From positions 1 to 43,968 of the forward strand of contig CASBRB010000072.1 in NCBI GenBank assembly GCA_949127975.1: a DNA stretch of 43,968 nt. Direction: 5' to 3'. A model generated the notes under the pieces. That model saw only the letters and a list, made by a program, of their open reading frames with translations, did no database searches and was not told the origin of the DNA. The position numbers were made by a program, and so were the translations under genes. This DNA is from Oscillatoriales cyanobacterium PMM_0019. Lineage in GTDB: Bacteria > Cyanobacteriota > Cyanobacteriia > Cyanobacteriales > CASBRB01. Shown here in pieces: positions 3,201 to 28,767 of the stretch (position 1 is the first letter of the stretch; each line of letters starts with the position of its first letter).

Positions 3201-4389
3201 AAAAACTAACTTGAAATAAGGGATTGCGGCTTAAGTCGCGCTCTGGATGCAGATCTTCTACTAATTTCTCAAAAGGTAAATCTTGGTGGGTATAAGCTCC
3301 TAAAACTACCTCTCGCACTCTGACTAAAAGTTCGCGAAACGTCGGGTTTCCTGATAAATCGCTGCGCAATACTAAGGTGTTGACAAAAAAGCCAATTAGC
3401 CCTTCAATCTCAAGGCGGTTACGGTTGGCGATCGGGACTCCGCAAACAATGTCGTCTTGTCCTGTATAATGGTATAATAAAGTTTGAAATCCTGTAAGCA
3501 GAGTGGTAAACAAGGTCACTCCCACTTGCCTGCTAAGCTCCTCTAGCCCTTGTTTTAGGGAGTGGGGTAGCTCTAGCAATTGTTTAGCTCCTTGGTAGGT
3601 GGGAACTGTAGGTCTAGGTTTGTCGGTAGGTAGATTTAGCACTGGCAGGTTGCCAAGTTGTTGCCGCCAATAAGCTAGCTGAGTTGACAGCACTTCTCCC
3701 TGTAACCATTGGCGCTGCCATTCGGTGAAGTCGGCGTATTGCAAGGGTAATTCTGGAAGGGGCGATAACTCTCCCTTGACAAAAGCTGTATATAATCCCC
3801 CCAGTTCCCGAACTAGCACCCCAATAGACCAACCATCAGCAATAATATGATGGAGATTCAGCAACAAGACATATTCTGCTGCATCGAGTTGTAGGATCGT
3901 CACTCTCAGTAATGGTGCCGTGGTGAGGGAGAAGGGGCGTTGGAATTCTTCTGTTATCAGCCTGCTGAGTTGTTTTTCCCTTTCAGTCGCCACCAGATGC
4001 TGTAGGTCGATCGCTGGTAGAGCTATAGTTAAGTGGGGTGCGATCGCTTGGATGAGGTCTTCACCCATAATAAAGCTAGTACGCAATATTTCATGACGAC
4101 GCACTATTTCGTTAAACGTCTGCTCTAGTGCAGCTAAGTTAAGCTTCCCTGTCAGACGAAGGGCACACCCGACATTGTAGAAAGGATTGCCCGGTGCCAA
4201 CTGGTGGAGAAACCACAACCGCTGCTGGGCAAACGATGCCGGAAAGACAAAAACCTCTGTTTCTTCATCACAACTAGCATTCATAGAAGGGGACGTTGAC
4301 GGGTGTAGGTTAAAGTCTACCGGAAAATGGGGGAGTTTCTCGTTCCCAGGCAGAGCCTGGGAACGCCGCTTTTGAGGCTCTGCCTCCAC
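223..4389 (-). CDS. NRPS terminal module, C-A-T-TE
   Basis: This 1388-residue peptide synthetase adds one amino acid and releases the product. Domains in order are condensation (about 47-480, HHIIADG at 180-186), adenylation (about 510-1000, YTSGSTGKPKG at 662-672), carrier (GGNS, pantetheine Ser1045) and type I thioesterase (about 1100-1380, GWSFGG with Ser1175, likely Asp1202 and His1360). Residues aligned by eye to the GrsA pocket read D708 A709 F712 T751 I772 A774 A795 V803 W804 K991. The DAxTIAAV pattern resembles Phe/Tyr-type codes, so an aromatic substrate is inferred with modest confidence. The 5' end is uncertain. The GTG at 4389 gives an N-terminus translated from a palindromic repeat, and the ATG at 4284 gives MNASCDEE, just before the conserved FAQQRLWF motif, and is more likely the ancestral start. 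No Shine-Dalgarno is seen at either. Its likely upstream partners lie 12 kb away. Confidence 0.93.
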   Translation of the reverse strand: MEAEPQKRRSQALPGNEKLPHFPVDFNLHPSTSPSMNASCDEETEVFVFPASFAQQRLWFLHQLAPGNPFYNVGCALRLTGKLNLAALEQTFNEIVRRHEILRTSFIMGEDLIQAIAPHLTIALPAIDLQHLVATEREKQLSRLITEEFQRPFSLTTAPLLRVTILQLDAAEYVLLLNLHHIIADGWSIGVLVRELGGLYTAFVKGELSPLPELPLQYADFTEWQRQWLQGEVLSTQLAYWRQQLGNLPVLNLPTDKPRPTVPTYQGAKQLLELPHSLKQGLEELSRQVGVTLFTTLLTGFQTLLYHYTGQDDIVCGVPIANRNRLEIEGLIGFFVNTLVLRSDLSGNPTFRELLVRVREVVLGAYTHQDLPFEKLVEDLHPERDLSRNPLFQVSFSLQNTPISALELPDLNLSLLEVDNGSAKLDLEFHFWSEGETLKGQVIYSTDLFHHTTITRMVGHFQTLLEGIVANPEQPLCELPILTIPERQQLLYDWNDTKQENLGNCIHYLFETQVKNSPDAIAVVFETQRLTYRELNIRANQLAGYLQQLGVVPESIVGICVERSVEMIVGVLGILKAGGAYLPLDPTYPQERLSFMLEDAQVSILLTQQQFVEQFGNDNRHFVILRVKNGAFFDNELPGNAQQSQENPNSSVLPDNLAYIIYTSGSTGKPKGVAISHRGLCNLVQAQRKTFNLQPSNRVLQFASLSFDASIFEIVMALATGATLYVAKNESLMPGKALIQLLRDNGITNVTLPPAVLAILPTAELPALQTIICAGEPCSQDIVKRWAGGRRFFNAYGLTEATVWSTVAEINQVNNAKSIIPIGRPIANTEIYILDAQLQPVPIGVVGELYLGGVGLARGYLNRPATTAERFIPHPFNHQQGARLYRTGDLGRYRSDGNIEFLGRIDEQVKIRGFRIELGEIEAVLRQHPAVTEAVVIATEDVYSNQRLIAYVVSNAKSSQLRSFLKEKLPEYTIPSAFVVLDALPLTPNGKVNRRALPAPDNLNSGPDIAPRTPTESALAEIWAQVLNLNRVGIQDNFFDLGGNSLLAVRLIDRIDKQFQKQLPLSTLFLNPTVEGLAKQLSSDTEALPWSPLVAIQPAGKKPPFFCIHPIFGVVFPYYELAYNLGTDQPFYGLQPLGLDGKEAPLDRIEDMAAYYIQALRLVQPEGPYFIGGWSFGGLVAFEMAQQLHQMGHEVALLAIFDTYAPVSAQQTSFWDGLKFIATTGVRYIWSFLFDYVYLLTVSDRHPSEELATIDLKLRNMMRSLGTHFLWNSISGQTKIDNFLPQEAKLRILNELTVTPMWRVYQANSKAVRSYVPQIYPNRLTLFKTSSAIATHQDPTRGWDKLALGGVEINLIPGNHLTMLKKPHVQILTEKLKFCLNPRERSIC
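4341..4365. repeat. Palindromic repeat, CGTTCCCAGG family
   Basis: This is a perfect inverted repeat, CGTTCCCAGG / CCTGGGAACG, with the 5-base loop CAGAG. Other copies lie at 4660-4688, 4834-4854, 21533-21554 and (half only) 43874-43894. If the GTG start at 4389 is used, this copy encodes the SQALPGNE part of the NRPS N-terminus. Confidence 0.85.
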
Positions 4390-4394
4390 CTAAA

Positions 4395-4485
4395 CAGGAC
4401 TTACGCATGCCTCTATATATAGCGGGTTCGTAGGGGCAATCCCCAAGTGGGTTGCCCCTATATATGCCAGTGTGCATAAGTCCTG
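4395..4485. mobile_element. Full-length 91-bp palindromic MITE-like element
   Basis: The element begins CAGGACTTACGCA and ends TGCATAAGTCCTG, so its termini are inverted repeats with one mismatch. The interior contains a GTAGGGGCAA...TTGCCCCTA stem. It starts 6 bases upstream of the GTG codon of the NRPS gene. It encodes no protein of its own, so movement would need a transposase supplied elsewhere. No clear target duplication is visible, because a second partial copy abuts the right end. Confidence 0.85.
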
Positions 4486-4540
4486 ATATAGCGGTTCGTA
4501 GGGGCAATCCCCAAGTGGGTTGCCCTTACATATGCCCAGT
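4486..4540. repeat. Partial copy of the MITE body
   Basis: This stretch repeats the interior of the element (ATATAGCGGTTCGTAGGGGC through CATATGCCCAGT) directly after the first copy and lacks both terminal repeats. The following bases (CTGCCTCCATCTAAA) resemble those preceding the first copy, so the array looks like a local tandem duplication. Confidence 0.7.
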
Positions 4541-4555
4541 CTGCCTCCATCTAAA

Positions 4556-4647
4556 CAGGACTTACGCACTGCCTATATATATAGCGGTTCGTAGGGGCAA
4601 TCCCCAAGTGGGTTGCCCTTACATATGCCCAGTGTGCGTAAGTCCTG
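4556..4647. mobile_element. Full-length MITE-like element, second copy
   Basis: This copy has the terminal repeats CAGGACTTACGCAC and GTGCGTAAGTCCTG and a body nearly identical to the copy at 4395-4485, with a few substitutions such as CCCTTACATATGCCC. It lies between the NRPS gene and the upstream kinase gene, in a 526-base repeat-filled gap (4390-4915) with no gene that I can support. Confidence 0.85.
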
Positions 4648-4659
4648 TTAGCCCTTTTT

Positions 4660-4688
4660 CTCGTTCCCAGGCTCTGCCTGGGAACGAG
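4660..4688. repeat. Palindromic repeat, CGTTCCCAGG family
   Basis: This is a perfect 12-base inverted repeat, CTCGTTCCCAGG / CCTGGGAACGAG, around the loop CTCTG. The loop is the reverse complement of the CAGAG loop in the 4341 copy, so the two copies are in opposite orientation. Confidence 0.85.
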
Positions 4689-4713
4689 GGCTTTGAGCCC
4701 AGGCTCCAATCTT

Positions 4714-4752
4714 CTCGTTTCTCGTTCCATCGCTCGTTTCTCGTTCCATCGC
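4714..4752. repeat. Short tandem direct repeat
   Basis: CGTTTCTCGTTCCATCGCT occurs twice in direct succession. The unit shares its CTCGTTCC portion with the neighbouring palindromic family, so it may be a degraded derivative of that family. Confidence 0.7.
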
Positions 4753-4833
4753 TAAAGGAGGGAATGAGTTTGAACACCGATTGCTCCCGTGGTGGTATTC
4801 CCGACTGGTGGAGGCAGAGCCTCCTTTCCAGCA

Positions 4834-4854
4834 TTCCCAGGCAGAGCCTGGGAA
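4834..4854. repeat. Palindromic repeat, CGTTCCCAGG family
   Basis: The arms are TTCCCAGG and CCTGGGAA around CAGAG. A related GGCAGAGCCTCC tract precedes it at 4812-4824, matching the tract that encodes the first NRPS codons at 4370-4389. Confidence 0.75.
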
Positions 4855-4878
4855 CGAGAAATAAGAACACCGATTGCA

Positions 4879-4915
4879 GGGCTACCCTACATATGCCCAG
4901 TGTGCGTAAGTCCTG
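4879..4915. repeat. Right-end fragment of the MITE
   Basis: The bases from CTACCCTACATATGCCCAGT through GTGCGTAAGTCCTG match the right end of the element. The terminal CCTG (ending at 4915) abuts the TAA stop codon of the kinase gene (4916-4918), so the insertion lies exactly at the 3' end of that gene. Confidence 0.75.
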
Positions 4916-6136
4916 TTAGCCCATTTTTCTCTCAGCAACCTTAGGCAAAATAATTGTAAAAACACTTCCCTTACCGACTTCACTTGTAACCGCAATCTCC
5001 CCTCTGAAAATTTTTAATAGTTCGCGAGATATATAAAGTCCTAGCCCTGTTCCTGCGGGTTCACCGGCTTCTTTTTCCTCACCTTTGGCTGGCTTTGAAG
5101 TGTAGAAAGGGTCAAAAAGGTTTGAAATATTATCGGGTGCTATTCCACACCCTGTATCTTTAACATCTATGTATATGCTCGTTTCATCTTGTCTGGTAAC
5201 AATAGTCACTTCTTTTTCGCTCATGTTCCACATAGCATCAATAGCATTATTTATTAAATTATGAAATACCTGGGTAATGTGAGTATAAATCAAAGAAATG
5301 CTTGGTATTTTATTGTCATAAAAATATTTTTTTTGGATTTTATGCTTAAAATCTAAGTTAGACATTAATAATTGAATTTCATTTTGCACAATATCATTGA
5401 CGTTGAGCAATTTTAAGTCTAAATTTTGGCTCCTGCGATTATTAATTAGCAAATTATCCATTATCTTCTGGATTTGGAGAGTGGCAATTTTAATATATTT
5501 ACTTAACTCTAAAATTTCTTCTTCATTAATTGTTGTTGCTTGCGAATTAATTAAATCGTTAGACAGCAAAATTGTTTGCAGAGGATTCTTGATATTATGA
5601 ACTATCCCTTGAGTTAAGCGACCTAATAAAGCCGCTCTTTCTTGTTCAATCAGTTGTTTTGTTTTTTCTTCAACGATATTTTCAAGATTTTGATTGATGT
5701 CTTTCAGGGCTTCATTTTGCTCGATAAGTTTTGAATGCAAACTCTGGATAGTCAGTTGATTCTGTACGCGAACCAAAACTTCTTCAATTTGAAACGGCTT
5801 TGTAATGTAGTCACTGCCACCGGCGCAAAAAGCTTTTACTTTGTCCAATGCTTCGTCGAGAGCGCTGATAAAAATAATCGGCACTTTACGAGTCCTCTCA
5901 TCCGCTTTCAGATGCTGGCAAACTTCATAGCCATCCATCTCTGGCATCATAATGTCGAGTAAAATCACATCTGGTACCAGGGCTTGACACGCAGTCAAAG
6001 CCATCTCCCCGTTCAAGGCTTTGCGAACTTTATATCCCTGCTCTGTCAGCATTGTGGATAAGACGCGAAGGTTGGCTGGGGTATTATCGACGATTAGAAT
6101 ATCTTTTTTGTAGAAGTCAACCTGAGCGGTGTTCAT
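4916..6136 (-). CDS. Response regulator-histidine kinase hybrid (REC-HK)
   Basis: This is a 406-residue cytosolic two-component protein. An N-terminal receiver (about 11-128) has phospho-acceptor Asp61 in LLDIMMPEMDGYEV and the Lys of ITKPF. A predicted coiled coil follows (about 135-170), then a histidine kinase core with His180 in IVHNIKNPL, an N box at NLINNAID (Asn297), a DTGCGIAP box, an F box at LFDPFYTSK and GTGLGLYIS. There is no output DNA-binding domain and no membrane segment, so it probably takes phosphoryl groups on its receiver and passes signal through its kinase core. It follows the CHASE2 hybrid kinase gene by 95 bases on the same strand, so the two may form one relay (inference). 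The last residues (VAERKMG) and stop abut a MITE end. A diverged copy of its 3' end occurs at 24537-24630. Confidence 0.9.
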   Translation of the reverse strand: MNTAQVDFYKKDILIVDNTPANLRVLSTMLTEQGYKVRKALNGEMALTACQALVPDVILLDIMMPEMDGYEVCQHLKADERTRKVPIIFISALDEALDKVKAFCAGGSDYITKPFQIEEVLVRVQNQLTIQSLHSKLIEQNEALKDINQNLENIVEEKTKQLIEQERAALLGRLTQGIVHNIKNPLQTILLSNDLINSQATTINEEEILELSKYIKIATLQIQKIMDNLLINNRRSQNLDLKLLNVNDIVQNEIQLLMSNLDFKHKIQKKYFYDNKIPSISLIYTHITQVFHNLINNAIDAMWNMSEKEVTIVTRQDETSIYIDVKDTGCGIAPDNISNLFDPFYTSKPAKGEEKEAGEPAGTGLGLYISRELLKIFRGEIAVTSEVGKGSVFTIILPKVAERKMG

Positions 6137-6231
6137 TGAGTCTAGCTCTCCATTCCCCTTGCCTTGGGGGAAAATTTGTTATCATCAACAATTAAAATGC
6201 TTGATTTTAAATACATCAGCTTGGTGGCTAT

Positions 6232-9054
6232 TCATTCTAAAGTTGCTTGAGTTAAGTTAATTATTTTATCAAACCGAAAGTTATTAGTACAATCAGCTAG
6301 GGTTTGGCTTAGATTTGCCTTGTCTTTAGGGATTTGTTCCAGCAACTGAAAAATTACATCGTCGCTACCTTCAGCCGCAGCGTGGTGTAATTGTAACACC
6401 CAATCAGTCGGCATTACAGCTAAAGCTGCTGGAGTCAAATCTTCCACCGCAACCGCTTCTGGTGATGGAGCCCAGAAGGCTACTTTTTCATAAAGATAAC
6501 GCACCCCCAAATATTTCGCCATTTTTTCAAAAATCTCTTCCTCTTTGAAAGGCTTACGCACGAAGTCATCGCAGCCTGCTGACAAGGCTGTTAAGCGTTC
6601 TTCTTCTAAAACACTAGCACTCAGGGCAATAATTACAGTATTTTGACTGGTTTCAATGGGGATTTGGGTGGAGGAAAAATTTTCTTCTCCCGGTTTACCT
6701 ATATCTCTTTCTCTGGCTTTAATTTCCTTGCTACACTCATACCCATCCATGACTGGCATCTGCAAATCCATCCAGATAAACTGTGGCTTCCAACTCGCCC
6801 ACAGAGCTAACGCTTCTCGACCATTTTCAGCCTCACGGATCTCTAAACCCTTCATTGCCAGTAATTTGACTAACAGTTCGCGGTTTTCCCATCGGTCATC
6901 AACCACCAGGATACGATATATAGGTTGGTTTGGTTCCAAACCAATGACTCGCTTGGGTGGCTGTTTACTGTGAATATTAGCTGTCTCAGCAAGTTCGCTC
7001 TGGATATCAAATTTTAAAATAGTTTTTTCACCTAAAACACTGCTAGCGGTAATGTCTCCCCCCATTAGTTGCACAAATTTTCGGCTAATCGGTAAACCTA
7101 AACCCGTTCCTTGCTGAGATTTCCTACCTGTTTCGGTTTGAACAAAGGCTTGAAATAAACTGTCAATTTCTGCTGGTGCAATCCCAGGGCCAGTGTCTTC
7201 GACTTCAAACCAAAGATGGATAGTAGGATATTTTTCGATTTTACTGACTAACTCTGATATACTACCTGGCGAAACTCGCAACGCGATCGTACCAGTTTCA
7301 GTAAATTTTATCGAGTTACCGATTAAGTTAATTAATACCTGACTTAATTTATTTTCGTCCGTTTTCACGTATTGGGGAACTTCTGGGGCGCGGTAAAATA
7401 ACAGCTTTAATCCTTTGGATTCGGCTTTGAGTTGCAACATCTCTTGCAGATTATCCAGCATGTGATAAAGGTCAAAGCTATTCTCATTTAAAACTATCCT
7501 ACCCGCTTCAATTTTAGACATTTCCAATACGTCATTAATCAATGTCAGTAAATGTTCGCCACTGTTACTAATAATTCCCAGATATTTCTGGTGTTCCTGT
7601 TTCAGGGATCTGTCGCGGTTCATAACTTGTGTAAAACCCAGGATCGCATTCAGTGGAGTTCTCAATTCGTGGCTCATTCTTGCCAGAAATTCACTTTTAG
7701 CATGGTTAGCCACTTCGGCTGCCTCTTTAGCCTTTTGCAAGGCGGTTTCGGCTGCCATACGTACTCTAATTTCCTGCTGTAATTCTTGGGTTCGTTCTGC
7801 TACTTTCACCTCCAAGGTGAGAGAATACTCCTCTAGTCGCTGGTTAGAGAGTTTCAATTTCTCCCACAAAAGATACCCGTTGCTGATAATCGCAGACCCC
7901 ACCAGTGCTAAGAGCGGTGACACTACAATAATCCACCAGCCTCCTAGAAACAACAGATAGGCACTGCCAAATATAACACTGCTTGTCAATATAAAGCTGA
8001 GGATTTTCCTCATGGACGATCGCAAGAAACGCCCCAGTATAGTGCCAATTCCAGACCACACCAAAATCCATAACCATTGGAGAGGTTCGGGACAGGGTTT
8101 GAGCAGGGGTCGCCCATCTAGAGCAGCACTCAAGATTTGACTGGCTGCATTAGCATGAATTTGAACCCCAGGCATTGTAGAGCCAGGGTTTTGGCTAAAG
8201 GGTGTATAGAATAAGTCTTTAGAACTTTGAGCAGTTGAGCCAATCAGGACTATTTTACCCCGGAAAAAATTTTTAGAGACTCTACCTGCTAGTACATTGG
8301 TGATCGAAACTGTAGGAAAGCCGTCTCTGAATTTGCGGAAGTTAGCTAATATTTGGTAGCCCCCTGTATCTGCACCGACATACCCTCCCTGGTTGGCACT
8401 CAAAGGAACGAATTTAGCCCGACCTAGCTGAAGTTGACCCGATTCGGCATTAATTTGTTTAAGAGTAATGCCTCGGGCATCCAAATAGGTTAGAGCCAGC
8501 TTTGCACCCAGACTCATTACTACTTGACCCTGGGGATCTTTGAGACTCAGCAGACTCCGACGAATTTTGCCATCTGCATCCACTACTAGATCGATCGCAG
8601 CCACCTGACCTAATTCACTGAGCTTTGGAGGTGGAGCGACAGGAGGATTGTCAATATTACCAACAACTTTCTCGACTCCGATCGCGTTTGGGGTTGAGGC
8701 AAAGACCTCGATCAGTTTAGAATTACCCGGTGGTACTGGTAGATTGCGGTAGAGATCTAACCCAATTACTGTGGGTTGTTGTTGCTTAATTTTCTCAAGC
8801 AATTGTGCCAGAAGCTCGTCTGACAGGGGCCAACGTCCTAATTGGGAAATATCAGACTCACCAATGGCAACAATCGCAATTCGAGACTCAGTTGACTCGA
8901 AAGGGCGCAGACGAAAAAATTGATCGAGCGCAGCCCATTCCAGTAGCTGTAGTACACCGATAGATTTCACGGCAATGACTACTGCGCTGATACAGAACAT
9001 CATTCCCCATATTTTCCAACCCTGCTTAATTTGCTGTCTTAGCTTTGCCTGCAT
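6232..9054 (-). CDS. CHASE2-domain hybrid histidine kinase
   Basis: This 940-residue membrane sensor kinase opens with a transmembrane segment (about 15-35) and a long CHASE2 sensor (about 38-315, with AIGESDISQLGRWP and LDLYRNLPVPPG), which should be extracytoplasmic. Two or three transmembrane helices follow (about 325-398). A coiled coil (405-450) leads to the kinase core with His462 in MSHELRTPLNAI, an N box at LINLIGNSIKFT, DTGPGIAP and QGTGLGLPIS. A receiver follows with Asp763 in WMDLQMPVMDGYE and Lys in VRKPF. The C-terminal about 75 residues are helical and unassigned. The gene starts 3 bases after the DUF928 gene, which strongly suggests an operon with the CHAT gene. The CHASE2 ligand is unknown. 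Confidence 0.92.
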   Translation of the reverse strand: MQAKLRQQIKQGWKIWGMMFCISAVVIAVKSIGVLQLLEWAALDQFFRLRPFESTESRIAIVAIGESDISQLGRWPLSDELLAQLLEKIKQQQPTVIGLDLYRNLPVPPGNSKLIEVFASTPNAIGVEKVVGNIDNPPVAPPPKLSELGQVAAIDLVVDADGKIRRSLLSLKDPQGQVVMSLGAKLALTYLDARGITLKQINAESGQLQLGRAKFVPLSANQGGYVGADTGGYQILANFRKFRDGFPTVSITNVLAGRVSKNFFRGKIVLIGSTAQSSKDLFYTPFSQNPGSTMPGVQIHANAASQILSAALDGRPLLKPCPEPLQWLWILVWSGIGTILGRFLRSSMRKILSFILTSSVIFGSAYLLFLGGWWIIVVSPLLALVGSAIISNGYLLWEKLKLSNQRLEEYSLTLEVKVAERTQELQQEIRVRMAAETALQKAKEAAEVANHAKSEFLARMSHELRTPLNAILGFTQVMNRDRSLKQEHQKYLGIISNSGEHLLTLINDVLEMSKIEAGRIVLNENSFDLYHMLDNLQEMLQLKAESKGLKLLFYRAPEVPQYVKTDENKLSQVLINLIGNSIKFTETGTIALRVSPGSISELVSKIEKYPTIHLWFEVEDTGPGIAPAEIDSLFQAFVQTETGRKSQQGTGLGLPISRKFVQLMGGDITASSVLGEKTILKFDIQSELAETANIHSKQPPKRVIGLEPNQPIYRILVVDDRWENRELLVKLLAMKGLEIREAENGREALALWASWKPQFIWMDLQMPVMDGYECSKEIKARERDIGKPGEENFSSTQIPIETSQNTVIIALSASVLEEERLTALSAGCDDFVRKPFKEEEIFEKMAKYLGVRYLYEKVAFWAPSPEAVAVEDLTPAALAVMPTDWVLQLHHAAAEGSDDVIFQLLEQIPKDKANLSQTLADCTNNFRFDKIINLTQATLE

Positions 9055-9057
9055 GAA

Positions 9058-9780
9058 TTACTTGTTTATCGGTTCTGAGGCAATATTACCAAGTCCAGTT
9101 GATTTCAGCAGTTCCTCCCACTTACTGGTTATAGTTAGATCCTGGGGATTCTCTCGTCTTAACTGAGCCAGAGTGTTTACTGCCTCATACCAAATTCCCT
9201 TAGAGGCATACACGGATGTACGTTCCAAAGGATTTAGCCCTTCTAATGAAGGTAGCTTAGGATCGATTCTTTGAATCCACCCACTCACAACTAGGTCATC
9301 ATTGAGTCTATCTTCTGGATTGCAAATCACGGCAAACTTCCACTGGTAATGTTTGCCAATCTCTAGAGCGGGTTCGCTATCTGGTAGGCTAATGCTCACA
9401 ACACCAGGATGACCTGTAAGTGCCACCCTAGTTTGATAAATTCCATTGTCCGTGCCCTCAACCACGGTTAATTCAGCAGAGCTTGCGGTAGTTTGAGGAA
9501 CGTAGACTAGGAATGTAGGGTGTGCTGCCACAGTTAATGCTGGATGGTTGTCAGGGATTAGGGCAGTCAGAGAAGTAGTCTTAACTGATACATCTTGGGG
9601 ACATTTCCCCCTTGCGGCACCTCCATCAGTTGTTCCGGGTGAACCGCCATTGCCAGAAGGAGGGTTAAAAGTAACTGACTGTGCTTGCGCTCTTAATCCC
9701 AAGCTAGATGTTGTTGATAGTGCAAGCACTAGAGCCGCCCAAAAGCGGAGAAATTTTAGACGAATTCTTACTTTCGACAT
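9058..9780 (-). CDS. DUF928 domain secreted protein
   Basis: This 240-residue protein has a signal peptide (hydrophobic LRFWAALVLALSTTSSLGL, cleavage near AQAQS) and then a Gly-rich stretch (PPSGNGGSPG) and the DUF928 pattern: GGAARGKCPQ, LTALIP, an LT..AHPTFLVYVP strand, and a second Cys in FAVICNP. DUF928 proteins are largely cyanobacterial and recur beside CHAT and CHASE2 genes, but their function is not established. The two cysteines could form a disulfide in the periplasm (inference). The start is well supported by AGGAG about 9 bases upstream (complement of 9790-9794). It lies 25 bases after the CHAT gene and 3 bases before the kinase gene. Confidence 0.88.
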   Translation of the reverse strand: MSKVRIRLKFLRFWAALVLALSTTSSLGLRAQAQSVTFNPPSGNGGSPGTTDGGAARGKCPQDVSVKTTSLTALIPDNHPALTVAAHPTFLVYVPQTTASSAELTVVEGTDNGIYQTRVALTGHPGVVSISLPDSEPALEIGKHYQWKFAVICNPEDRLNDDLVVSGWIQRIDPKLPSLEGLNPLERTSVYASKGIWYEAVNTLAQLRRENPQDLTITSKWEELLKSTGLGNIASEPINK

Positions 9781-9805
9781 CTCAATGAACTCCTTAGTTT
9801 ATAGA

Positions 9806-12529
9806 TTAAAGCCAGTTTCCCACCAAAACAAAGGGTGCCCAGTAATAAGGATGACTGAATTGAGGTTGTTTCAAGAGGCTCAACTGGGCACGACGCAAAG
9901 CTTCAGCTTTATTCACTCCAGGTAAGGCAATATCTTTGTAGAATTCCACCATAGCAGAAGCAGTAGATCGATCGTTCACCGACCAAAGACTTGCTAGGGT
10001 ACTGCGGGCACCAGAGCGAACAGCGATCCCGGCAAGTCCTAAAGCTGCCCGGTTGTCTCCTTGTGCAGTTTGACATGCACTGAGAACCAGTAATTCGATC
10101 GGACTATGGGGTTGGTTTAAGTCTCTAGTCTGTAATATGTCCTCCAGTTGTTGGATGTCGAGCCGTCGATCCCAGAGGAGAATAAAGGTATCTTTAGCAT
10201 TAGAGCTAAATTGACCGTGGGTTGCTAAGTGAACGATCGAAAAAGAAACTTTATCGATCAGAGACGCTATGGCTTTTTCCGTAAACTCCTGGTTCAAAAT
10301 TACTTTTGAAGGCACTTGAGTGCGGATTCGGTCGAGTTCTTGCTCGACACCAGGTAGAGGTGCAAAACCTCGGATCGCTTTGCTGATTCCACCCATTAAC
10401 AACTCAAGCCGATCGCGTTTTAGGGGTTTTGGCTTCAGCAGTTGCAACCCTGGAGTAAGCGCGATGCTGTATTTCTCTATTATATACTTTTTGCCATCGT
10501 GAAGGGCTGCCATTGGTAGGTTTCGCAGTTCACCGTCTAAGACAAACACTAGCGTTTTTACACCCGCTGCCTCTATTTCTGATGCCGCTGGTCGAATCAG
10601 CCAGTCGTAGAGCGTTTGAGCCAAAGGCAGTCTTTCTTGACGAAAAGATGTTTGCCGGAGAGATTGTCTCATCTTGCTAAAGGTACTTGACAAACTTTCC
10701 TGTGGCAAAACAGTCGCGTAATGTCGCAGAGGATGACCAGGCAAAGCTACAATAACTTCTAACCGATCGCTTAAAATAATTGGATAAATAACTGCTACTG
10801 TTCGCTCAACTTGCTCTATTTGAACTGGCTGAGTGTCTAAACATGCTTGGCGGAAGAAGTTTTGTAGTTCAGCTAATTGTAGCGACTCAATTACATCTCT
10901 AGCTTGAATGATATTTTTTTGACTAGGCTCCTCATCTCCAGGTTTTAATAGTATACTTACTAGCTCTCGATATACAGGTTCTACACTATCTCGAAAGGAA
11001 AATTGTACATCTGGATTAACTGCTACTAAATCGTTGCGTAATAATTTGATATTGTTGACTGCTTTGCTGTAATAAGCGATCGCTTCGGTATTTTTTCCTG
11101 TAATTTTCATCAGGCGACCTAACTGCCATTGCCAACGATAGGCAATATCTGGGGCATTAATAGTTTCAGCAAGGATAAGTGCTTTTTGGGTTAGTTCTAA
11201 AGCATCATCCCATTGATGACTTTGTTGGTATACCCCACCTAAATAACCGAGAGCGTAGGCTTCCGAGCTTGCATCTTGGATACTGCGAGCCTGTTGAACG
11301 GCTGTAGCCAAAAGTTGTGCAATTTCCGACCCCAATTCTGAGATGCTAGTTGCTGAGTTATTTTCGCTTTTTTTCTCAGAGGAGAAGGGGCACTGCTGAA
11401 ATATTGGGGATAATGTTTCTCGTTCGTTCGGCTTAAGTTTCTGCTGTTTCATGCAAATCAGACTTTGAGCCAAGTTAATCCTAGCGTAAACTGTTGCCCT
11501 ACTGATAGGCAAACTAGACATTTCTGAGTTAATTTGGGTTAACAGAGCTGGAATTTCAGTTCCTTGATGAAGCTGCAACAATATCCTGAGTTCATTGAGA
11601 TGAATCTTAATTTTCATCGCGGGCAAATTCGCCTTTTTCGCTGCTTCTTGATAATAAGCTAGAGCCTCTTTGTTATGCTGCTGAACGCTTGCAGTATTTC
11701 CTAGACTTATCAAAATAGCACTTTCGTCTTTGGAGGAAGGTTCGCGCTTGGCTACAGCCAAACTTTGCTGTAAAACTTCTTCAGATTCTTTAAAGGAGCC
11801 AACTAACCGTAGAACATCACCAAGGCTCCGCAATCCAGTAGCCTTGAGCGGCGAATCCGGTTGTTTCTGGAGCTTTCCTTCCACATCAATTAACGTGGTT
11901 AAAGCACGACGGTAAAATCCTAAAGCTTTGAGGGCTTGGGCTTGGTTTATATGGCTGCCTATCGCCATCGCCTCATCACCCGATCGGGCATATATAGCGC
12001 TAGCTTGTTGCCAACTGTTCAGAGCCTTTTCTGATTGTCCCAGTGTTAATTGTAGCTGACCTTGAGTATTAAGTCCTTGGGCTGTAACTAGCCAATATTC
12101 TGTAGATTTATCTTTATTTGACGTTGTTTGTAATAGTTTTAAACTATCTGTAATCGCCTTGTTAGCTGACGACCACTGTCCGAGTTTTTGATAAACTAAT
12201 GAGAGATAGTTAAGAGCCCGCGCTTCATTTAGCACATTTCCTTGGGAATCAAATTCTCCCACCGCTTGTTGCAATTTTTCTGCTGCCAAGGAGAATTTTT
12301 CGGCTTGGTAGAGTTCGACGCCCTGGCTTAACAGATGCAGAGCATTTGAGCTGGGTTCTTTCGGTGCTGGGTTAGTGGTTAGTGACGCTACCGATAGCTT
12401 AGGGAAGCTGAACGCTGCCGCTTGAGTCAAGGCGACCCACAATAGCAATTTTGGTATAACATATAGCACTTTCGTAAACAGATATTTTAACCTCAAGGGC
12501 GATCTGTGTTCGTTCGATCGATCAAGCAA
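9806..12529 (-). CDS. CHAT-domain caspase-like protease with TPR repeats
   Basis: This 907-residue protein has an N-terminal hydrophobic segment (about 20-45, a signal peptide or anchor), about ten TPR-like helical repeats (about 60-520), and a C-terminal CHAT domain (about 620-907). The caspase-fold dyad is visible as His771 in IVHLATHGQF and Cys819 in LLVLSACQTAQGD, and both are in standard context, so the peptidase is probably intact. CHAT (caspase HetF associated with TPRs) proteins are caspase-like cysteine peptidases or signalling scaffolds. Substrates here are unknown. It is the first gene of a tight minus-strand series with DUF928 and CHASE2 kinase genes. If the N-terminal segment is a signal peptide, both the TPRs and protease would face the periplasm, alongside the CHASE2 sensor domain (inference). 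Confidence 0.92.
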   Translation of the reverse strand: MLDRSNEHRSPLRLKYLFTKVLYVIPKLLLWVALTQAAAFSFPKLSVASLTTNPAPKEPSSNALHLLSQGVELYQAEKFSLAAEKLQQAVGEFDSQGNVLNEARALNYLSLVYQKLGQWSSANKAITDSLKLLQTTSNKDKSTEYWLVTAQGLNTQGQLQLTLGQSEKALNSWQQASAIYARSGDEAMAIGSHINQAQALKALGFYRRALTTLIDVEGKLQKQPDSPLKATGLRSLGDVLRLVGSFKESEEVLQQSLAVAKREPSSKDESAILISLGNTASVQQHNKEALAYYQEAAKKANLPAMKIKIHLNELRILLQLHQGTEIPALLTQINSEMSSLPISRATVYARINLAQSLICMKQQKLKPNERETLSPIFQQCPFSSEKKSENNSATSISELGSEIAQLLATAVQQARSIQDASSEAYALGYLGGVYQQSHQWDDALELTQKALILAETINAPDIAYRWQWQLGRLMKITGKNTEAIAYYSKAVNNIKLLRNDLVAVNPDVQFSFRDSVEPVYRELVSILLKPGDEEPSQKNIIQARDVIESLQLAELQNFFRQACLDTQPVQIEQVERTVAVIYPIILSDRLEVIVALPGHPLRHYATVLPQESLSSTFSKMRQSLRQTSFRQERLPLAQTLYDWLIRPAASEIEAAGVKTLVFVLDGELRNLPMAALHDGKKYIIEKYSIALTPGLQLLKPKPLKRDRLELLMGGISKAIRGFAPLPGVEQELDRIRTQVPSKVILNQEFTEKAIASLIDKVSFSIVHLATHGQFSSNAKDTFILLWDRRLDIQQLEDILQTRDLNQPHSPIELLVLSACQTAQGDNRAALGLAGIAVRSGARSTLASLWSVNDRSTASAMVEFYKDIALPGVNKAEALRRAQLSLLKQPQFSHPYYWAPFVLVGNWL

Positions 12530-12547
12530 CCGTCCGCTTACAACCCA

Positions 12548-12648
12548 TTACTCCCTTCCCGCCAGAAGATTTTGTATTTTCTACTCCCCCTGCTCCCCCT
12601 GCTCCCCCACCTGGCTTAATACATAATCTTAGAGCGGGAAGGGAGTAA
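12548..12648. repeat. 101-bp element with perfect 15-bp inverted ends
   Basis: TTACTCCCTTCCCGC at 12548-12562 is repeated exactly in inverse orientation at 12634-12648, enclosing 71 bases that include CTGCTCCCCC repeats. The first 13 bases recur at about 24693-24705, so the sequence is dispersed. It sits in the 316-base gap between the adhesin and CHAT genes. It could be a second MITE family or a transcript hairpin. Confidence 0.65.
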
Positions 12649-12757
12649 CTCTATTGTAGTCCATTTCTGTCGCCCTAGTCTACCCAAAGACATAATTTAT
12701 TTATATCCAAAGATATAATAAATCTCTATTACCAGTAGAGTATATACAGGCTTATCA

Positions 12758-12793
12758 GTACTGTAGCAGACTGGGCATATGTAGGGGCAACCT
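12758..12793. repeat. Half copy of MITE variant (CAGTACTGTAGCA end)
   Basis: The sequence CAGTACTGTAGCAGACTGGG followed by CATATGTAGGGGCAAC matches the left half of the variant copy at 24719-24812. It shares the body of the 91-bp family but has a different outer end. The right half is missing. Confidence 0.65.
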
Positions 12794-12845
12794 CACAGAG
12801 TTATGTGGCAGCGTGGCATCTGACTTAATCTGTGCTGCCAACCCT

Positions 12846-15311
12846 CTAAGAGTGGTGGCAGGCAACAGGAGCAGCCGAAAAACTGCTGGGCGCGACGTTG
12901 GGCATGTTTGCTACTAGGATGACTTCTCCTTGAGAGTTAACCACCCAGCCATTAGCTTCAACCATCGAGCCAGAGCCAGAGGCAGCAGCTAGGTTTTCAG
13001 GAATTGATGAGACAGCAATTTTCTTTGTGCTTCGGGTTGTTAACCTCAAATCCTCTAAGACAGCTTCATCACTGAGATATCCTGTAGGATCGGAAGGTAA
13101 GCCTCCTCTGCCTGTGATAGTAAAGCTACTTCGGAACCCTGCTTTAGTAGCGTTACAAGTTTGGGGCACTAATATTTGTAAATTAACTAACTTGTCAGAA
13201 AAATCGGTTAATCCCTTACTGGGGTCTATCCCAGGTGTGTTGATTTTTACCACCCCACTTATACCAAAATCTGAGGTAGCAGTAACTTTACTATCTGAAG
13301 AAACAAAAATTCCTTGAGTATTGATTTGAATGTTACCGCCTCTACCTCGCGAGGCATTAGCTGCAATGCGGCTATTTTCTAGGGCAACTAAAGTTTCTGA
13401 GTTCAAGGTGAGGTTGCCACCATTACCCGTACCATTGGCAGTAGCAGTGATTGCACTGTTGTGGTGTAGTTGCAACTGTTGTGAAAGTAAGGAAATATTG
13501 CCACCTTCACCTGATGCGGTTGCTGCTTGGATACCACCACGATTCAGAAAAATCGCTCCAGCGTTTATTTTTAAATTTCCAGCGTTACCCGGACCATCAT
13601 TCCTGACAGTAACTAAACCTCCATTGGTAACACTCAATCTTCCTGTGTTAATCGTCACATTTCCAGATGCTCCTGAAGGCACTGGCGGCAGATTCAACAA
13701 GTGTTGGGTAACTTTATCTAAAATAAAGGCAGAGGAAGTTATTTGACTAGGATTTATAGAGCCAGACACCATGCCGCTCACATCAACTGAATCAGAGGCG
13801 TTGATAATAATACTGCCAGCATTACCCGTTGCGAAAGCGCCAGCACCAATTCTGCCTCCGTCTTTCAGCGTCAAAGAAGAGGTGTTAATCAGCACTCTGC
13901 CAGCATTGCCAGCACCAAATGTTGCATCAGCGATTACGCTTGGTAAAAAAAAGATTCGCTCAACTCCTAACAGTTGTATAGACTGGCGTGAATTCAGGGT
14001 TAGATTTCCTGCGTTGCCGCTCCCATAGGTTATAACAGACACCTCTCCTCCATCAACTTCAGTTAGCTGCCCTGTTGAAACCGCAATATCTCCTGTGGCC
14101 CCAGAATGAAAAGTGCTATTATTAATAAAGCTGACAAACTGGGGATTTATCTGTGAAAAACCTAATATTTGAACCGAATTAGAGGCGTTGACATTTATGG
14201 TTCCGCTAGTGGCAGTACTAAAGGTTTTAGAAGATACTTCTCCCCCACCTTGAATTACTAACTGCTTGGTATCAATTGTAATGTCTCCTCCGCTGCCAGT
14301 GCCTAGAGTTTCAGTCGTAATTCGGGAATTAATTTTGCCATCTGGAGAAGTTCCACTCACTTGTAGTAAATCAGATGCTTTAACGGTTAAGCTTCCGGCT
14401 GGTAATATTCCTTGGTTTTGAATTAACACTATCGAGCCATCGTTGATGCTGACGACTCGCCCCTGTAAAGAAATCGAGCCACTGGTATCTACAGCAGCCC
14501 CTGAGACTAACTGAATATTCCTGAAAGCTGGTACGTCAAGATATTCCAAAGTCCAACCAGCGCTATTAGGGTGGAGACTGACATTTCCTCCGGCAACAGA
14601 GCCTAATTCAATCCTGCCCCCTGGCGCTGTTAAAATACCACCATTCAAAGTGACATCGCCCCCGACTAAGGCTAGGGTTTTCCCAGGAGATACCTGCAAG
14701 CCTGTGCCAGAACCTGCACCGGCTAGAGGTGAAAATGTGGGATCTGAAACTGTTAAACTGTGTCCTGTGCCGATAACATCAATTGCACCCGACTTCGCTC
14801 CATACTGTAAGCCGATAGGGACACTAACAGTTAGTAGAGGCGAAGCTAGGGGACTTACGGCGCTAAATTGAGTGCCATCAGCAAAGTTGATGCTATTTGC
14901 CGTACTCCCGAAAAAGGAGCCGCCAATGTTTAACTGTGCTGTGCGATCGAATATAATACCATTGGGGTTAAGCAAGAATAAGTTAGCAGTACCATTGGCT
15001 TTGAGAATGCCATTGATATAAGAAATTCCCCCACCCGTTACCCGCGTGAAAATGTTATTCACATCCTTGGTATTGTTAAACACAGCCTGACTGCCGTTGA
15101 GGACAGAAAACTGACTAAAGCTGTGAAAAAGATTCCCACCCTGTTTAGTGCCACCCTCGATATAATTAGTATTCCCCTGCTGTCTGACTGTGGAATTGAC
15201 GGGCAAGGTGCTATCTGGAACAATTTGTGCCGCAGTGGGTGCAGCGGTTACTATATAAAGTATTGTACTAATTTGAAGTTGCCAGAACTTATTTTGCCAA
15301 GGTTTGCTCAT
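12846..15311 (-). CDS. Filamentous haemagglutinin N-terminal domain adhesin (TPS exoprotein type)
   Basis: This 821-residue secreted protein has a signal peptide (about 1-28, ending APTAAQ) followed by a two-partner secretion haemagglutination-activity domain (about 35-165). Landmarks are NYIEGGT, GGNLFHSFSQFSV, FNN, IFTRVTGG, ANLFLLNPNGIIF and an NFADG region. The rest is a Gly/Asn/Ser-rich beta-helix with recurring GxGGNI or GNAGNLTLN units, ending in a short Cys-containing segment. In known systems such proteins cross the outer membrane through a TpsB/ShlB transporter, and none is present in this window. It lies 316 bases upstream of the CHAT gene on the same strand. Adhesins of this type are often found with CHAT and DUF928 genes in cyanobacteria (family knowledge), so a shared surface-related role is plausible. 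Confidence 0.9.
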   Translation of the reverse strand: MSKPWQNKFWQLQISTILYIVTAAPTAAQIVPDSTLPVNSTVRQQGNTNYIEGGTKQGGNLFHSFSQFSVLNGSQAVFNNTKDVNNIFTRVTGGGISYINGILKANGTANLFLLNPNGIIFDRTAQLNIGGSFFGSTANSINFADGTQFSAVSPLASPLLTVSVPIGLQYGAKSGAIDVIGTGHSLTVSDPTFSPLAGAGSGTGLQVSPGKTLALVGGDVTLNGGILTAPGGRIELGSVAGGNVSLHPNSAGWTLEYLDVPAFRNIQLVSGAAVDTSGSISLQGRVVSINDGSIVLIQNQGILPAGSLTVKASDLLQVSGTSPDGKINSRITTETLGTGSGGDITIDTKQLVIQGGGEVSSKTFSTATSGTINVNASNSVQILGFSQINPQFVSFINNSTFHSGATGDIAVSTGQLTEVDGGEVSVITYGSGNAGNLTLNSRQSIQLLGVERIFFLPSVIADATFGAGNAGRVLINTSSLTLKDGGRIGAGAFATGNAGSIIINASDSVDVSGMVSGSINPSQITSSAFILDKVTQHLLNLPPVPSGASGNVTINTGRLSVTNGGLVTVRNDGPGNAGNLKINAGAIFLNRGGIQAATASGEGGNISLLSQQLQLHHNSAITATANGTGNGGNLTLNSETLVALENSRIAANASRGRGGNIQINTQGIFVSSDSKVTATSDFGISGVVKINTPGIDPSKGLTDFSDKLVNLQILVPQTCNATKAGFRSSFTITGRGGLPSDPTGYLSDEAVLEDLRLTTRSTKKIAVSSIPENLAAASGSGSMVEANGWVVNSQGEVILVANMPNVAPSSFSAAPVACHHS

Positions 15312-16160: not shown

Positions 16161-16336
16161 GTGGAGTACACGCATGGCAGGGGCGGGCACGGGGGCACCG
16201 CCCCTACAATCTTACCGTACCTTATGCGGCTGCAAGCAGCTGTATAGGGGCAACCACAGGGGGTTTGCCCCTACGAACCCGCTATATATAGAGGCAGTGC
16301 GTAAGTCCTGTTATTCTAAATTTTCCTCTTCTCAGC
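16161..16336. repeat. Repeat-filled gap with a 5'-truncated MITE copy (16242-16310)
   Basis: The span begins with a GGGCGGGCACGGGGGCACC-type repeat, then contains TATAGGGGCAACCACAGG through GAGGCAGTGCGTAAGTCCTG, which is the right about 70 bases of the MITE. The left terminal repeat is absent. It separates the toxin stub from the 3' end of the NRPS gene and so marks a likely rearrangement junction. No gene is seen. Confidence 0.7.
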
Positions 16337-19300
16337 TCATGGTTTATTTTTGAGAGAAGATAACTTCATGCGACGATTTTCTCTCTCGACTGGTACTAAA
16401 GCTGGGGCTTGACTTTTAGTATCGCTTTCTTGCAAACCCTCTATTACTTTAGATAGTTGCCCGATCGCCGGAGCCTCAAATACACTCCGCAAAGGTAACT
16501 CTACCCCGAAAGCCTCCCGCACTCTAGATACTAACTGAGTCGCCAGTAAGGAATGACCCCCTAATTCAAAGAAATTATCATCAATACCTACTCGCTTCAC
16601 TCCCAATACCTCAGCCCAAATTTTTACTAGCACTTCCTCAATAGCATTGCGAGGCGCAACATCAACTCCTGCCCATTCCGATTTAATCGAGTCCGGTTTA
16701 GGTAAGGCGCGACGATCGATCTTGCCATTAGGCGTGAGCGGCAATTGTCCCATCACTACAAAAGCTGAAGGCACCATATAATCAGGCAACTTTTCTGTCA
16801 AATAAGCCTGAATCTGAGGCACTAATTTTCGGGCTGTTTCACCTTGCAAAGGATTATTAGCATAAGTTCGCCAAGGATGCAGACTATTACTATCTTCCAC
16901 TAGGTCAGGACTTACGCACACTGGCATATATAGGGGCAACCACGGGGGGTTTGCCCCTACCAACCCGCTATGGTTTTCGCCTTGCGATCGCGCCAACACG
17001 ACATCATAGCGTCCTTCAATGCCAGAATCTGACCAACTAATGTTAAGACTATAACCTAGCTCATCACCCAGTGCATGCCAATCCTCTGGGTTTACTCCCA
17101 AAGAAGGCATTTCTTCTAGGGCTTGACGAATCTGACCTGCTGTTTTATATTTACAATATCCTGACAACCATGCTGCTGTTTTTACTGCTGCCATTACCCG
17201 CGCATTAGGTATATTAACGAGCGCTAACATTTCTGGTGAGGTTTCGGTTAATAGCTGACGCACTGTCGATACTGTCAAATTATCTTTATCCCAGTTCAGC
17301 CCCTGAAACTCCCGTCCACGGGGAGAAGTAATTTCAGTGCCAATATGCAAAATCGCATTGTAACGAAACTGAGTTAACTCATTTTGATGACTACCCCGCA
17401 TTAGTTCAAGTCTTACCTGGCTTATCTGCGGAAATTGTTGCTGTAATGCACTAAAAAAATCTGGAGCGATGACTAACTCAGTTTCTTGGAACATTTGCAT
17501 TTGTACCCTTTGCTGCAACTGTTCGCGAGTCAGGGAAGGTTCTGCTTGATGCAGTTGCACTGAAGCATGGAAAGCTTCTAGTAAAGACAAATTACGTAGA
17601 TCTCCGATGAAAATAAAGCCACCGGGCGCTAACGCTTTTACCGCCCCCTCGATTACTTCCATCAGATACTCAATACTGGGAAAATATTGTACCACAGAGT
17701 TGAGGATAACGGCATCAAAGGCTTGTGTCGGTATGCCTTCAAAGTCGGTAGCCATTTTTGGCAGCAGAGTTACCTGGGGTAGATCTTGGAATGCTTGCTG
17801 CTGTCTAATATAGTTTAGCGATCGCACAGAAAAATCTGTTCCCCAGTATTCCTCGCACCTGCACGCAATCCGAAACAGCAACAAACCCGTACCACACCCT
17901 ATTTCTAACACTCGCTTAGGTTTCTTTTCTAAAATCTGTGCTACTTGGTTATTCACCCATTCCCGTACCTGCTCTGCTGGGATAGGCTGATTAGTGTAAG
18001 AACTGTTCCACCCTACAATATTAAATGTGGGATCTGAATCGGCAGGTGGTTGGCTGTAAGTGTCGTTGTAGAGCATCTGCCATTGGGATACCTGTTCTTC
18101 GTGCAATTGCGTCTGGTAACTGGTACTGCTGGCTTCACCATTTAACACCATATAAGCTACCAAACGGTCTTCCCCAACTACATCTTCTCGATTCATCACT
18201 ACTGTTTGTAGCACTGCCGGATGTTGACTCAATACCGCTTCAATTTCTCCTAACTCCATGCGAAAGCCGCGAATTTTCACCTGATAATCTAGGCGTCCTA
18301 GAAATTCGATGTTGCCGTCAGCTCGGTAACGAACTAAATCACCAGTTTTATAAAGTCGCCTTCCTTGTAGTGTAATAAACCTTTCAGCGGTTAAGTCAGG
18401 ACGGTTCAGGTAGCCCCGCGCCAATCCATCACCACCGATGTATAATTCTCCGGGAATGCCAACGGGCACGGGTTGTAAATGGGCATCCAACACGTAAACT
18501 TTGGTGTTAGCAATCGGAGTACCAATTGTAGGAGCTACATCAGTTTGTTTCCGGGCAGTAATAGTACCGGAAGTTGTCACAACAGTATTTTCAGTGGGGC
18601 CGTAATTATTCACCACTATAAAGGGATGGGAAGCTAAAGGATACTGATGGAGTTTGTCTCCACCTGTGAGTAATATCCGTAAAGCTGCATCCTGGGGCCA
18701 ATCTAATGTTAAAATTTTCTCGGCTAGGGGTGTGGGCAAAAAGCTAATCGTAATTCCCTGTACTTTCAACCAGTCTAGAAGTTTTACAGGTGAAATGCGG
18801 GTTTCATCATCTATAAAGTAAATGCTAGCTCCAGCGGTAAGATAGGGCCAAATTTCCCATCCACAGGCGTCAAATGCTACTCCGGCAATTTGAGTTGTTC
18901 GATCGCTCGGCGAAACTGCAAACGCTTGTTGATGCCAAAATATCAAATTTAACAATCCGCCATGTTCAATTTCTACTCCCTTGGGTTTACCAGTCGAGCC
19001 TGAGGTGTAGATAACATAAACGAGATTGTCTGTTAGTACTGAGTTATTTAAATTATCTTCACTTTCTCTGGCAATATTTTCCCAATCGCTATCTAGGCAG
19101 ATTACTTGCGTTCCCTGCTGCCCAATCCGATCGATCCATTGTTGTTTTGTCAACAAAACTGGCACTTGAGCCTCTGCCAGCATCAAACTTAAACGTTCTT
19201 GGGGATAGCTAGGATCTAAAGGCAGATATGCTCCACCAGCCTTGAGGATGCCCAACATACCTACTACCATATCTAGCGATCGCTCAACACAAATTCCTAC

Positions 19301-28658: not shown

Positions 28659-28767
28659 TTTTAGAGAAAGCGATTTGGGATTGGGAAGTTTGGAAATTAA
28701 TTCCTTCTGGATTTTAAATTATGGATTTTTGTTTTTTCATGATCCAAAATTTAAAATCCCAAATTTT

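Follow-up and report, generated by a model that had tools for sequence, protein, structure and literature searches.

Two described systems are among the closest to the locus analyzed here. In magnetotactic bacteria the gene for the exported protein MtxA is followed by a gene for a CHASE2-cyclase (PMC4439547), and among the EACC2-caspase proteins CHASE2 is one of the variable C-termini, with genes for extracytoplasmic function sigma factors and DUF1822 proteins in related neighbourhoods (Kaur et al. 2021, PMC8195603). Our subject is a block of five genes at positions 4916-15311 of a 43,968-nucleotide stretch of contig CASBRB010000072.1 from Oscillatoriales cyanobacterium PMM_0019; this whole stretch is called the window below. 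The block encodes a two-partner secretion (TPS) exoprotein, a TPR-CHAT protein, a DUF928 protein, a CHASE2 hybrid histidine kinase (HK) and a REC-histidine kinase. Our results leave practically no doubt that this gene set is real and recurrent. Its constant core is DUF928 plus CHASE2, often together with an exported CHAT protein and a TPS exoprotein, and the kinases vary. The set is probably an uncharacterized system through which the state of the cell envelope is reported.

The five open reading frames (ORFs) are all intact and all lie on the minus strand. From the TPS gene to the last kinase the intergenic gaps are 316, 25, 3 and 95 bases; the original prediction for this DNA, made from the sequence alone, had given the last three exactly, and the ORF coordinates agree. 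DUF928 was found in 83 of the 291 genomes sampled from the phylum, representing 52 of 113 genera. We compared 80 DUF928 neighbourhoods of other genomes (up to 20 kb), which are the best-scoring matches and under-sample divergent members, with 20 control regions. CHASE2 was present in 57 of the 80 loci, 46 of these within 300 bp, as compared with 1 of the 20 controls, and that single region also carries DUF928. Close DUF928-CHASE2 pairs were co-oriented in 97 of 109 cases with a median gap of 67 bases, and 14 were overlapping or abutting. Within the taxonomic order of the window, CHASE2 (E≤1e-40) was detected in 62/63 DUF928-positive genomes vs. 5/20 negatives (Fisher 2e-11). When TPR-CHAT in named genomes was used as a reciprocal bait (80 loci), TPS was recovered in 49, DUF928 in 47 and CHASE2 in 46, with all four in 26. 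At least four other genomes keep the complete gene order of the window, namely those of Oscillatoria princeps (L237), Oscillatoria sp. PCC 10802 (L241), Microseira wollei (L263) and the genome with locus L194, and shorter versions of it were seen at L160, L163, L168, L178, L245, L247, L256 and L276. The pair or the whole set is also carried by cyanobacterial plasmids, e.g. pC052_D of Nostoc sp. C052.

The set also recurs inside the host genome (5.74 Mb, 512 contigs), which gave 11 DUF928 matches above cut-off, 12 for CHASE2, about 35 for CHAT and about 20 for TPS. CHASE2 lies at most 5 kb from 9 of the 11 DUF928 loci (0.028 expected per locus by chance, binomial P 5e-13), a separate CHAT gene is near 10 of them (P 1e-10) and a TPS gene near 6 (P 4e-6). 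Many copies have the CHASE2-DUF928 pair and a CHAT-(ShlB)-TPS group in convergent orientation; the window has all its five genes of the set on a single strand. The DUF928 paralogs of this genome are scattered across the DUF928 tree. Chance clustering was rejected by the own-genome binomial, the 20 control regions and the reciprocal CHAT bait, and co-occurrence across cyanobacteria, a check proposed along with the original prediction, is far above chance in other genomes (57/80 vs. 1/20) and in the host itself (9/11).

The receptor encoded in the window (9054-6232, minus strand, 940 amino acids, Pfam CHASE2 2.2e-70) is a CHASE2-HisKA-HATPase-REC hybrid kinase, with CHASE2 at residues 24-338 (8985-8041), HisKA at 452-518, HATPase at 565-683 and REC at 714-849, and both the acceptor His (MSHELRTP) and the acceptor Asp (WMDLQMP) are present. 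The REC-HisKA-HATPase kinase behind it (6136-4916, minus strand, 406 amino acids, Response_reg 1.3e-28, HATPase_c 7e-25) likewise has its phospho-acceptor His and Asp intact. Such a kinase follows 15 of 21 CHASE2-HK genes and is tied to the HK variant only. Among the copies in the host genome the CHASE2 output is HK-REC in the window, HK on contig C70, GGDEF-EAL on C320 and a nucleotide cyclase on C252, and on contigs C196 and C370, and also C300, a CHAT/caspase domain forms the N-terminus of the CHASE2 ORF. In the window protein CHASE2 begins at residue 24, without a fused N-terminal caspase. It is because paralogous loci swap the output for a cyclase, GGDEF-EAL or N-terminal caspase that we take DUF928 and CHASE2 as the core.

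The neighbouring CHASE2 gene was typed for 93 DUF928 genes, and in 35 of these cases it encodes the N-terminal-caspase form. The His and Cys of this form are intact in 24 of 24 proteins, and the genes often adjoin DUF1822 and a sigma-like gene. As far as the available text of Kaur et al. describes them, the EACC2-caspase-CHASE2 systems have the caspase-CHASE2 fusion, DUF1822 and a sigma gene in common with paralogous loci in the host genome, and the window copy differs from them by having kinases in place of the caspase. That text, which makes no mention of haemagglutinin, two-partner proteins or DUF928, covers the cytoplasmic caspase type and neither DUF928, the exported TPR-CHAT nor the TPS protein (PMC8195603). 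At locus L111 (5785-6459) a DUF1822 protein with a TRADD-like N-terminal match (PF20694, 3e-6) is encoded upstream of a CHATn-CHASE2 gene. On a Nostoc plasmid (L309, 5300-8768) genes for an anti-sigma-factor antagonist, an ATP-binding protein and a PP2C phosphatase stand before CHASE2-DUF928, a gene order that suggests a partner-switching output.

The output types were also reflected in phylogenetic trees, which were built by a quick method. On the DUF928 tree the CHASE2 output type needs 11 changes, as compared with a mean of 45 and a minimum of 36 in 200 shuffles, and on the CHAT tree 13 changes, vs. a mean of 34 and a minimum of 27 in shuffles. The locus types are probably old and inherited as units.

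The DUF928 protein of the window (9780-9058, minus strand, 240 amino acids, PF06051 4.8e-60) has an export-type N-terminus, as do 88 of 99 DUF928 proteins according to a crude hydrophobicity rule, used here for all export calls in place of SignalP. It consists of an Ig/FN3-like beta sandwich (about residues 70-175) followed by TPR-like C-terminal helices (184-226), and in the AlphaFold2 (AF2) model the core has a predicted local distance difference test score (pLDDT) above 90. The best VIA match of the model is the C-terminal domain of MtxA (4z29, Z 9.5 over 146 residues, covering both domains; next match 7.6), and Foldseek places MtxA second (E 6e-4). MtxA is an exported Ig-like and TPR protein whose gene, like that of DUF928 in the window, stands directly before a CHASE2 gene (PMC4439547), and since this context played no part in finding the structure match it offers independent support. 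MtxA has an extra N-terminal region, it shares no detectable sequence similarity with DUF928, and the available text on its operon describes no CHAT or TPS gene (PMC4439547). Given that there is no sequence-level link, we liken DUF928 to MtxA in its working and do not claim it as a family member. In two Betaproteobacteria it is a gene for an exported-type LysM-FecR protein that directly precedes CHASE2-HK, as DUF928 does. There the FecR/LysM domains replace DUF928, with no CHAT or TPS annotated nearby, and profile comparison gave no similarity signal for a DUF928-FecR relation. The DUF928 pairing, the MtxA match with its context and the LysM-FecR context together lead us to infer that a dedicated exported partner is common among CHASE2 receptors, the cyanobacterial one being DUF928, and we consider it likely that DUF928 is the partner of CHASE2.

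The TPR-CHAT protein (12529-9806, minus strand, 907 amino acids, Pfam CHAT 3.3e-63) starts at a TTG codon, which makes its exact N-terminus uncertain. A hydrophobic N-terminus (about residues 12-48) is followed by a TPR solenoid (65-500) and a CHAT caspase-fold domain (635-905) that scores 214 bits against a Pfam cut-off of 24. The predicted catalytic His771 (HLATHG, codon at 10217-10219) and Cys819 (SACQTA, codon at 10073-10075), both on the minus strand, are intact, in line with the original prediction. The dyad is kept in 121 of 121 aligned exported CHAT domains, including TPS-CHAT fusions (see below), and the idea of a degenerate CHAT was rejected on this ground. Export-type N-termini were called in 33 of 38 CHATs, against a background of 30%; among predicted cytoplasmic neighbours (DUF1822, sigma-like, caspase-CHASE2) the share was 5-9%, with 1 of 21 for DUF1822 and 2 of 24 for EACC2-caspase-CHASE2. 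A cytoplasmic CHAT, named beforehand as a refutation, is unsupported by this heuristic. The claim that CHAT, DUF928 and the CHASE2 sensor share one side of the membrane holds as a prediction, the side being the outer face of the inner membrane.

By sequence the CHAT domain has no convincing relative in the PDB. The window protein was modelled with AF2 (pLDDT 84.8), and the model has its best PDB match in Craspase TPR-CHAT (Csx29), with separase and DdvA next among the caspase-fold matches. Craspase TPR-CHAT and separase (Z up to about 30 and 24, respectively) have the same overall architecture of TPR and caspase fold and a His-Cys dyad, whereas the window protein is only about 12% identical to them and has an export-type N-terminus. 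Moreover, no CRISPR family turned up among the scanned neighbouring window genes, though no search was aimed at gRAMP/Cas7-11. DdvA, a transmembrane anti-sigma factor of Myxococcus, is an envelope signalling protein that includes a region resembling TPR-CHAT (Z 22.6) and, unlike the gene set of the window, is made in one piece. We regard TPR-CHAT as a putative exported caspase-fold protease; fold matches at about 12% identity do not prove activity.

The exoprotein (15311-12846, minus strand, 821 amino acids, PF05860 1.4e-72, TIGR01901 8e-24) is of the filamentous-haemagglutinin type (type Vb). Its N-terminal TPS secretion domain (residues 28-284, 15230-14460, minus strand) is shared with other type Vb exoproteins and matches PF05860 at 245 bits, bearing out the haemagglutinin-type adhesin of the original prediction; the DUF928, CHASE2 hybrid kinase and REC-histidine kinase identities were likewise confirmed by Pfam. 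Unlike other type Vb exoproteins, the window protein has a conserved cyanobacterial C-terminal domain (about residues 709-821, 12849-13187, minus strand) with a C...TGRGGLP...C motif, for which no Pfam model match was found. Of 82 complete TPS ORFs, 76 end in such a domain, marked by a Cys pair and TG[R/K]GGLP. That it is specific to CHAT loci was rejected, as it also occurs on unlinked TPS proteins. No ShlB/FhaC transporter gene stands beside the window TPS gene; PF03865 matches above cut-off were found on five contigs elsewhere in the genome.

In four loci, TPS and CHAT are fused in a single intact ORF (L137, 1850 amino acids; L150, 1565; L151, 1404; L202, 1822), with scores of 233-244 bits for CHAT and 125-151 bits for TPS. 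CHAT forms the C-terminal end and the TPS domain lies toward the N-terminus; in three of them a Pro-rich low-complexity stretch comes before CHAT. The mapped stretches of these loci hold no separate TPR-CHAT gene. The CHAT domains of the fusions group in a single, fully supported clade, joined by a broken copy from the genome of the window itself. Assembly errors are an unlikely explanation, with four genomes, four family codes and a single CHAT clade. The simplest reading of the fusions is that CHAT and the exoprotein share one compartment, and they support a protease working beside the exoprotein. At L202 (4109-9577) a glycosyltransferase family 2 (GT2) domain precedes TPS-CHAT in a single open frame. 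Locus L118 (G000:C109, 2-7448), in the same genome as the window, is decayed: GT2-TPS and CHAT are split into separate ORFs and the CHASE2 gene carries an in-frame TAA.

Taken together, we favour an envelope-reporting module with interchangeable outputs in which the exported CHAT feeds signalling, a plausible and unproven reading to which we give a probability of about 45%. The CHASE2 protein would be a transmembrane receptor and DUF928, exported to the periplasm, its dedicated partner subunit, while TPR-CHAT, a putative exported separase/Craspase-like protease, would act on the TPS exoprotein or jointly with it. If the CHAT/TPS pair changes (an exoprotein stalled, bound, damaged or cut), this change could be passed through DUF928/CHASE2 and switch the cytoplasmic output. 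For the window this would be the hybrid kinase and the REC-kinase, presumably acting on regulators encoded elsewhere, and for other copies the nucleotide cyclase, GGDEF-EAL or cytoplasmic caspase. We infer the cutting by CHAT, its substrate, the binding of DUF928 to CHASE2 and the outside-to-inside direction of the signal. The earlier suggestion of a surface-sensing or proteolysis-coupled signalling system thus gains from the recurring set, the shared predicted compartment and the fusions, and its proteolysis link stays conjectural. Several observations weigh against this reading. The exported pair is optional, with CHAT in 30/80 DUF928 loci vs. 2/20 controls (Fisher P about 0.01) and TPS in 18/80 vs. 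0/20 (Fisher P about 0.01), and DUF928 stands without CHASE2 in about three of ten loci. The co-inheritance amounts to long-term linkage, which vertical inheritance of the locus could explain, and is no proof of contact. The link to MtxA is structural only, since the DUF928 profile gave neither MtxA nor any other convincing relative among PDB sequences, and according to the available text deleting mtxA produced no phenotype that could be seen under standard conditions (PMC4439547).

The main rival is maturation of the exoprotein. CHAT would process or release the TPS protein and DUF928-CHASE2 merely time its production, so that signalling bypasses proteolysis. A parallel exists in Bordetella, where SphB1 or CtpA act on the filamentous haemagglutinin FHA. 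The fusions and the TPS genes in 49 of 80 CHAT loci agree with maturation, as does the TG[R/K]GGLP domain, which nearly all other TPS ORFs carry and which is missing from all four ORFs in which CHAT is fused. However, TPS proteins of the same genome that have no CHAT next to them carry this domain as well, and CHAT shares locus type and tree structure with DUF928-CHASE2 beyond what pure maturation needs, and we consider this rival somewhat unlikely. The boldest reading is a bacterial protease-activated receptor, where the exported caspase-fold protease, sometimes physically part of the two-partner exoprotein, would cut an envelope protein and DUF928 pass the cut state to CHASE2 with its kinase, cyclase, cyclic di-GMP or caspase outputs; we hold it to be unlikely. 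Possibly, the DUF928-CHASE2 receptors and the TPS/CHAT surface systems are instead separate modules without biochemical coupling, which became neighbours through shared regulation or through expansion in the same genomes. This would fit a DUF928-CHASE2 linkage (57/80) much tighter than that of CHAT (30/80) or TPS (18/80), and the cyclase and caspase types that often lack a nearby CHAT. Yet DUF928 and CHASE2 each occur in more than half of the loci taken with the CHAT bait (47/80 and 46/80), CHAT clades match the CHASE2 output type and the CHAT-DUF928-CHASE2-HK order is kept in many distant genomes, which makes separate modules rather improbable. That the module is the extracytoplasmic arm of the EACC2-caspase systems, with the caspase as suicide effector and the HK copy a derived regulatory form, agrees with the caspase-form CHASE2 (35/93, dyad 24/24) and its DUF1822 and sigma-like neighbours as described in the available text of Kaur et al. 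(PMC8195603), but is very improbable, as the window copy lacks cytoplasmic caspase, NTPase and DUF1822, and cyclase, GGDEF-EAL and HK outputs resemble ordinary signalling.

The original prediction took the recurrence of the gene set as known, and this was not borne out. We found separate family annotations only. In the open-licence literature searched, a single paper mentions DUF928, and none turned up that describes the whole set, names DUF928 alongside CHAT or combines CHASE2 and 'CHAT domain'. New here are the TPS-CHAT fusions, the dyad conservation, the DUF928-MtxA match and a DUF928 tree that tracks CHASE2 output type. DUF928 is a family without an assigned function, and few CHASE2 signals have been explained. 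The pairing of the two and the link of DUF928 to MtxA suggest a general rule, with CHASE2 receptors joined by a dedicated exported partner; the cyanobacterial partner would be DUF928, that of magnetotactic bacteria MtxA and that of some Betaproteobacteria LysM-FecR. Under such a rule, the ligands of this widespread family of receptors become open to testing. The fusions point to extracytoplasmic caspase-fold proteases coupled to type Vb secretion, which we did not find described in the open-licence literature.

No RNA families or tRNAs were found in the window. The block is flanked by nonribosomal peptide synthetase (NRPS) genes (223-4389 and 16337-24495), encoding C-A-PCP and TubC_N-C-A-MT-PCP upstream and C-A-PCP-TE downstream, and is placed as if inserted before the terminal NRPS module. 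Copies of a dispersed repeat with the core AACAGGACTTACGCA, present 128 times in the genome, bracket it (4393-4917 and 16247-16312). The repeat resembles a miniature inverted-repeat transposable element, and some copies form inverted pairs about 80 bases apart. The copies at 4554-4587 and 16279-16312 are inverted relative to each other, with 97% complementarity. Farther along the window, two adjacent PmbA/TldD-type metallopeptidase genes occupy 27312-30240.

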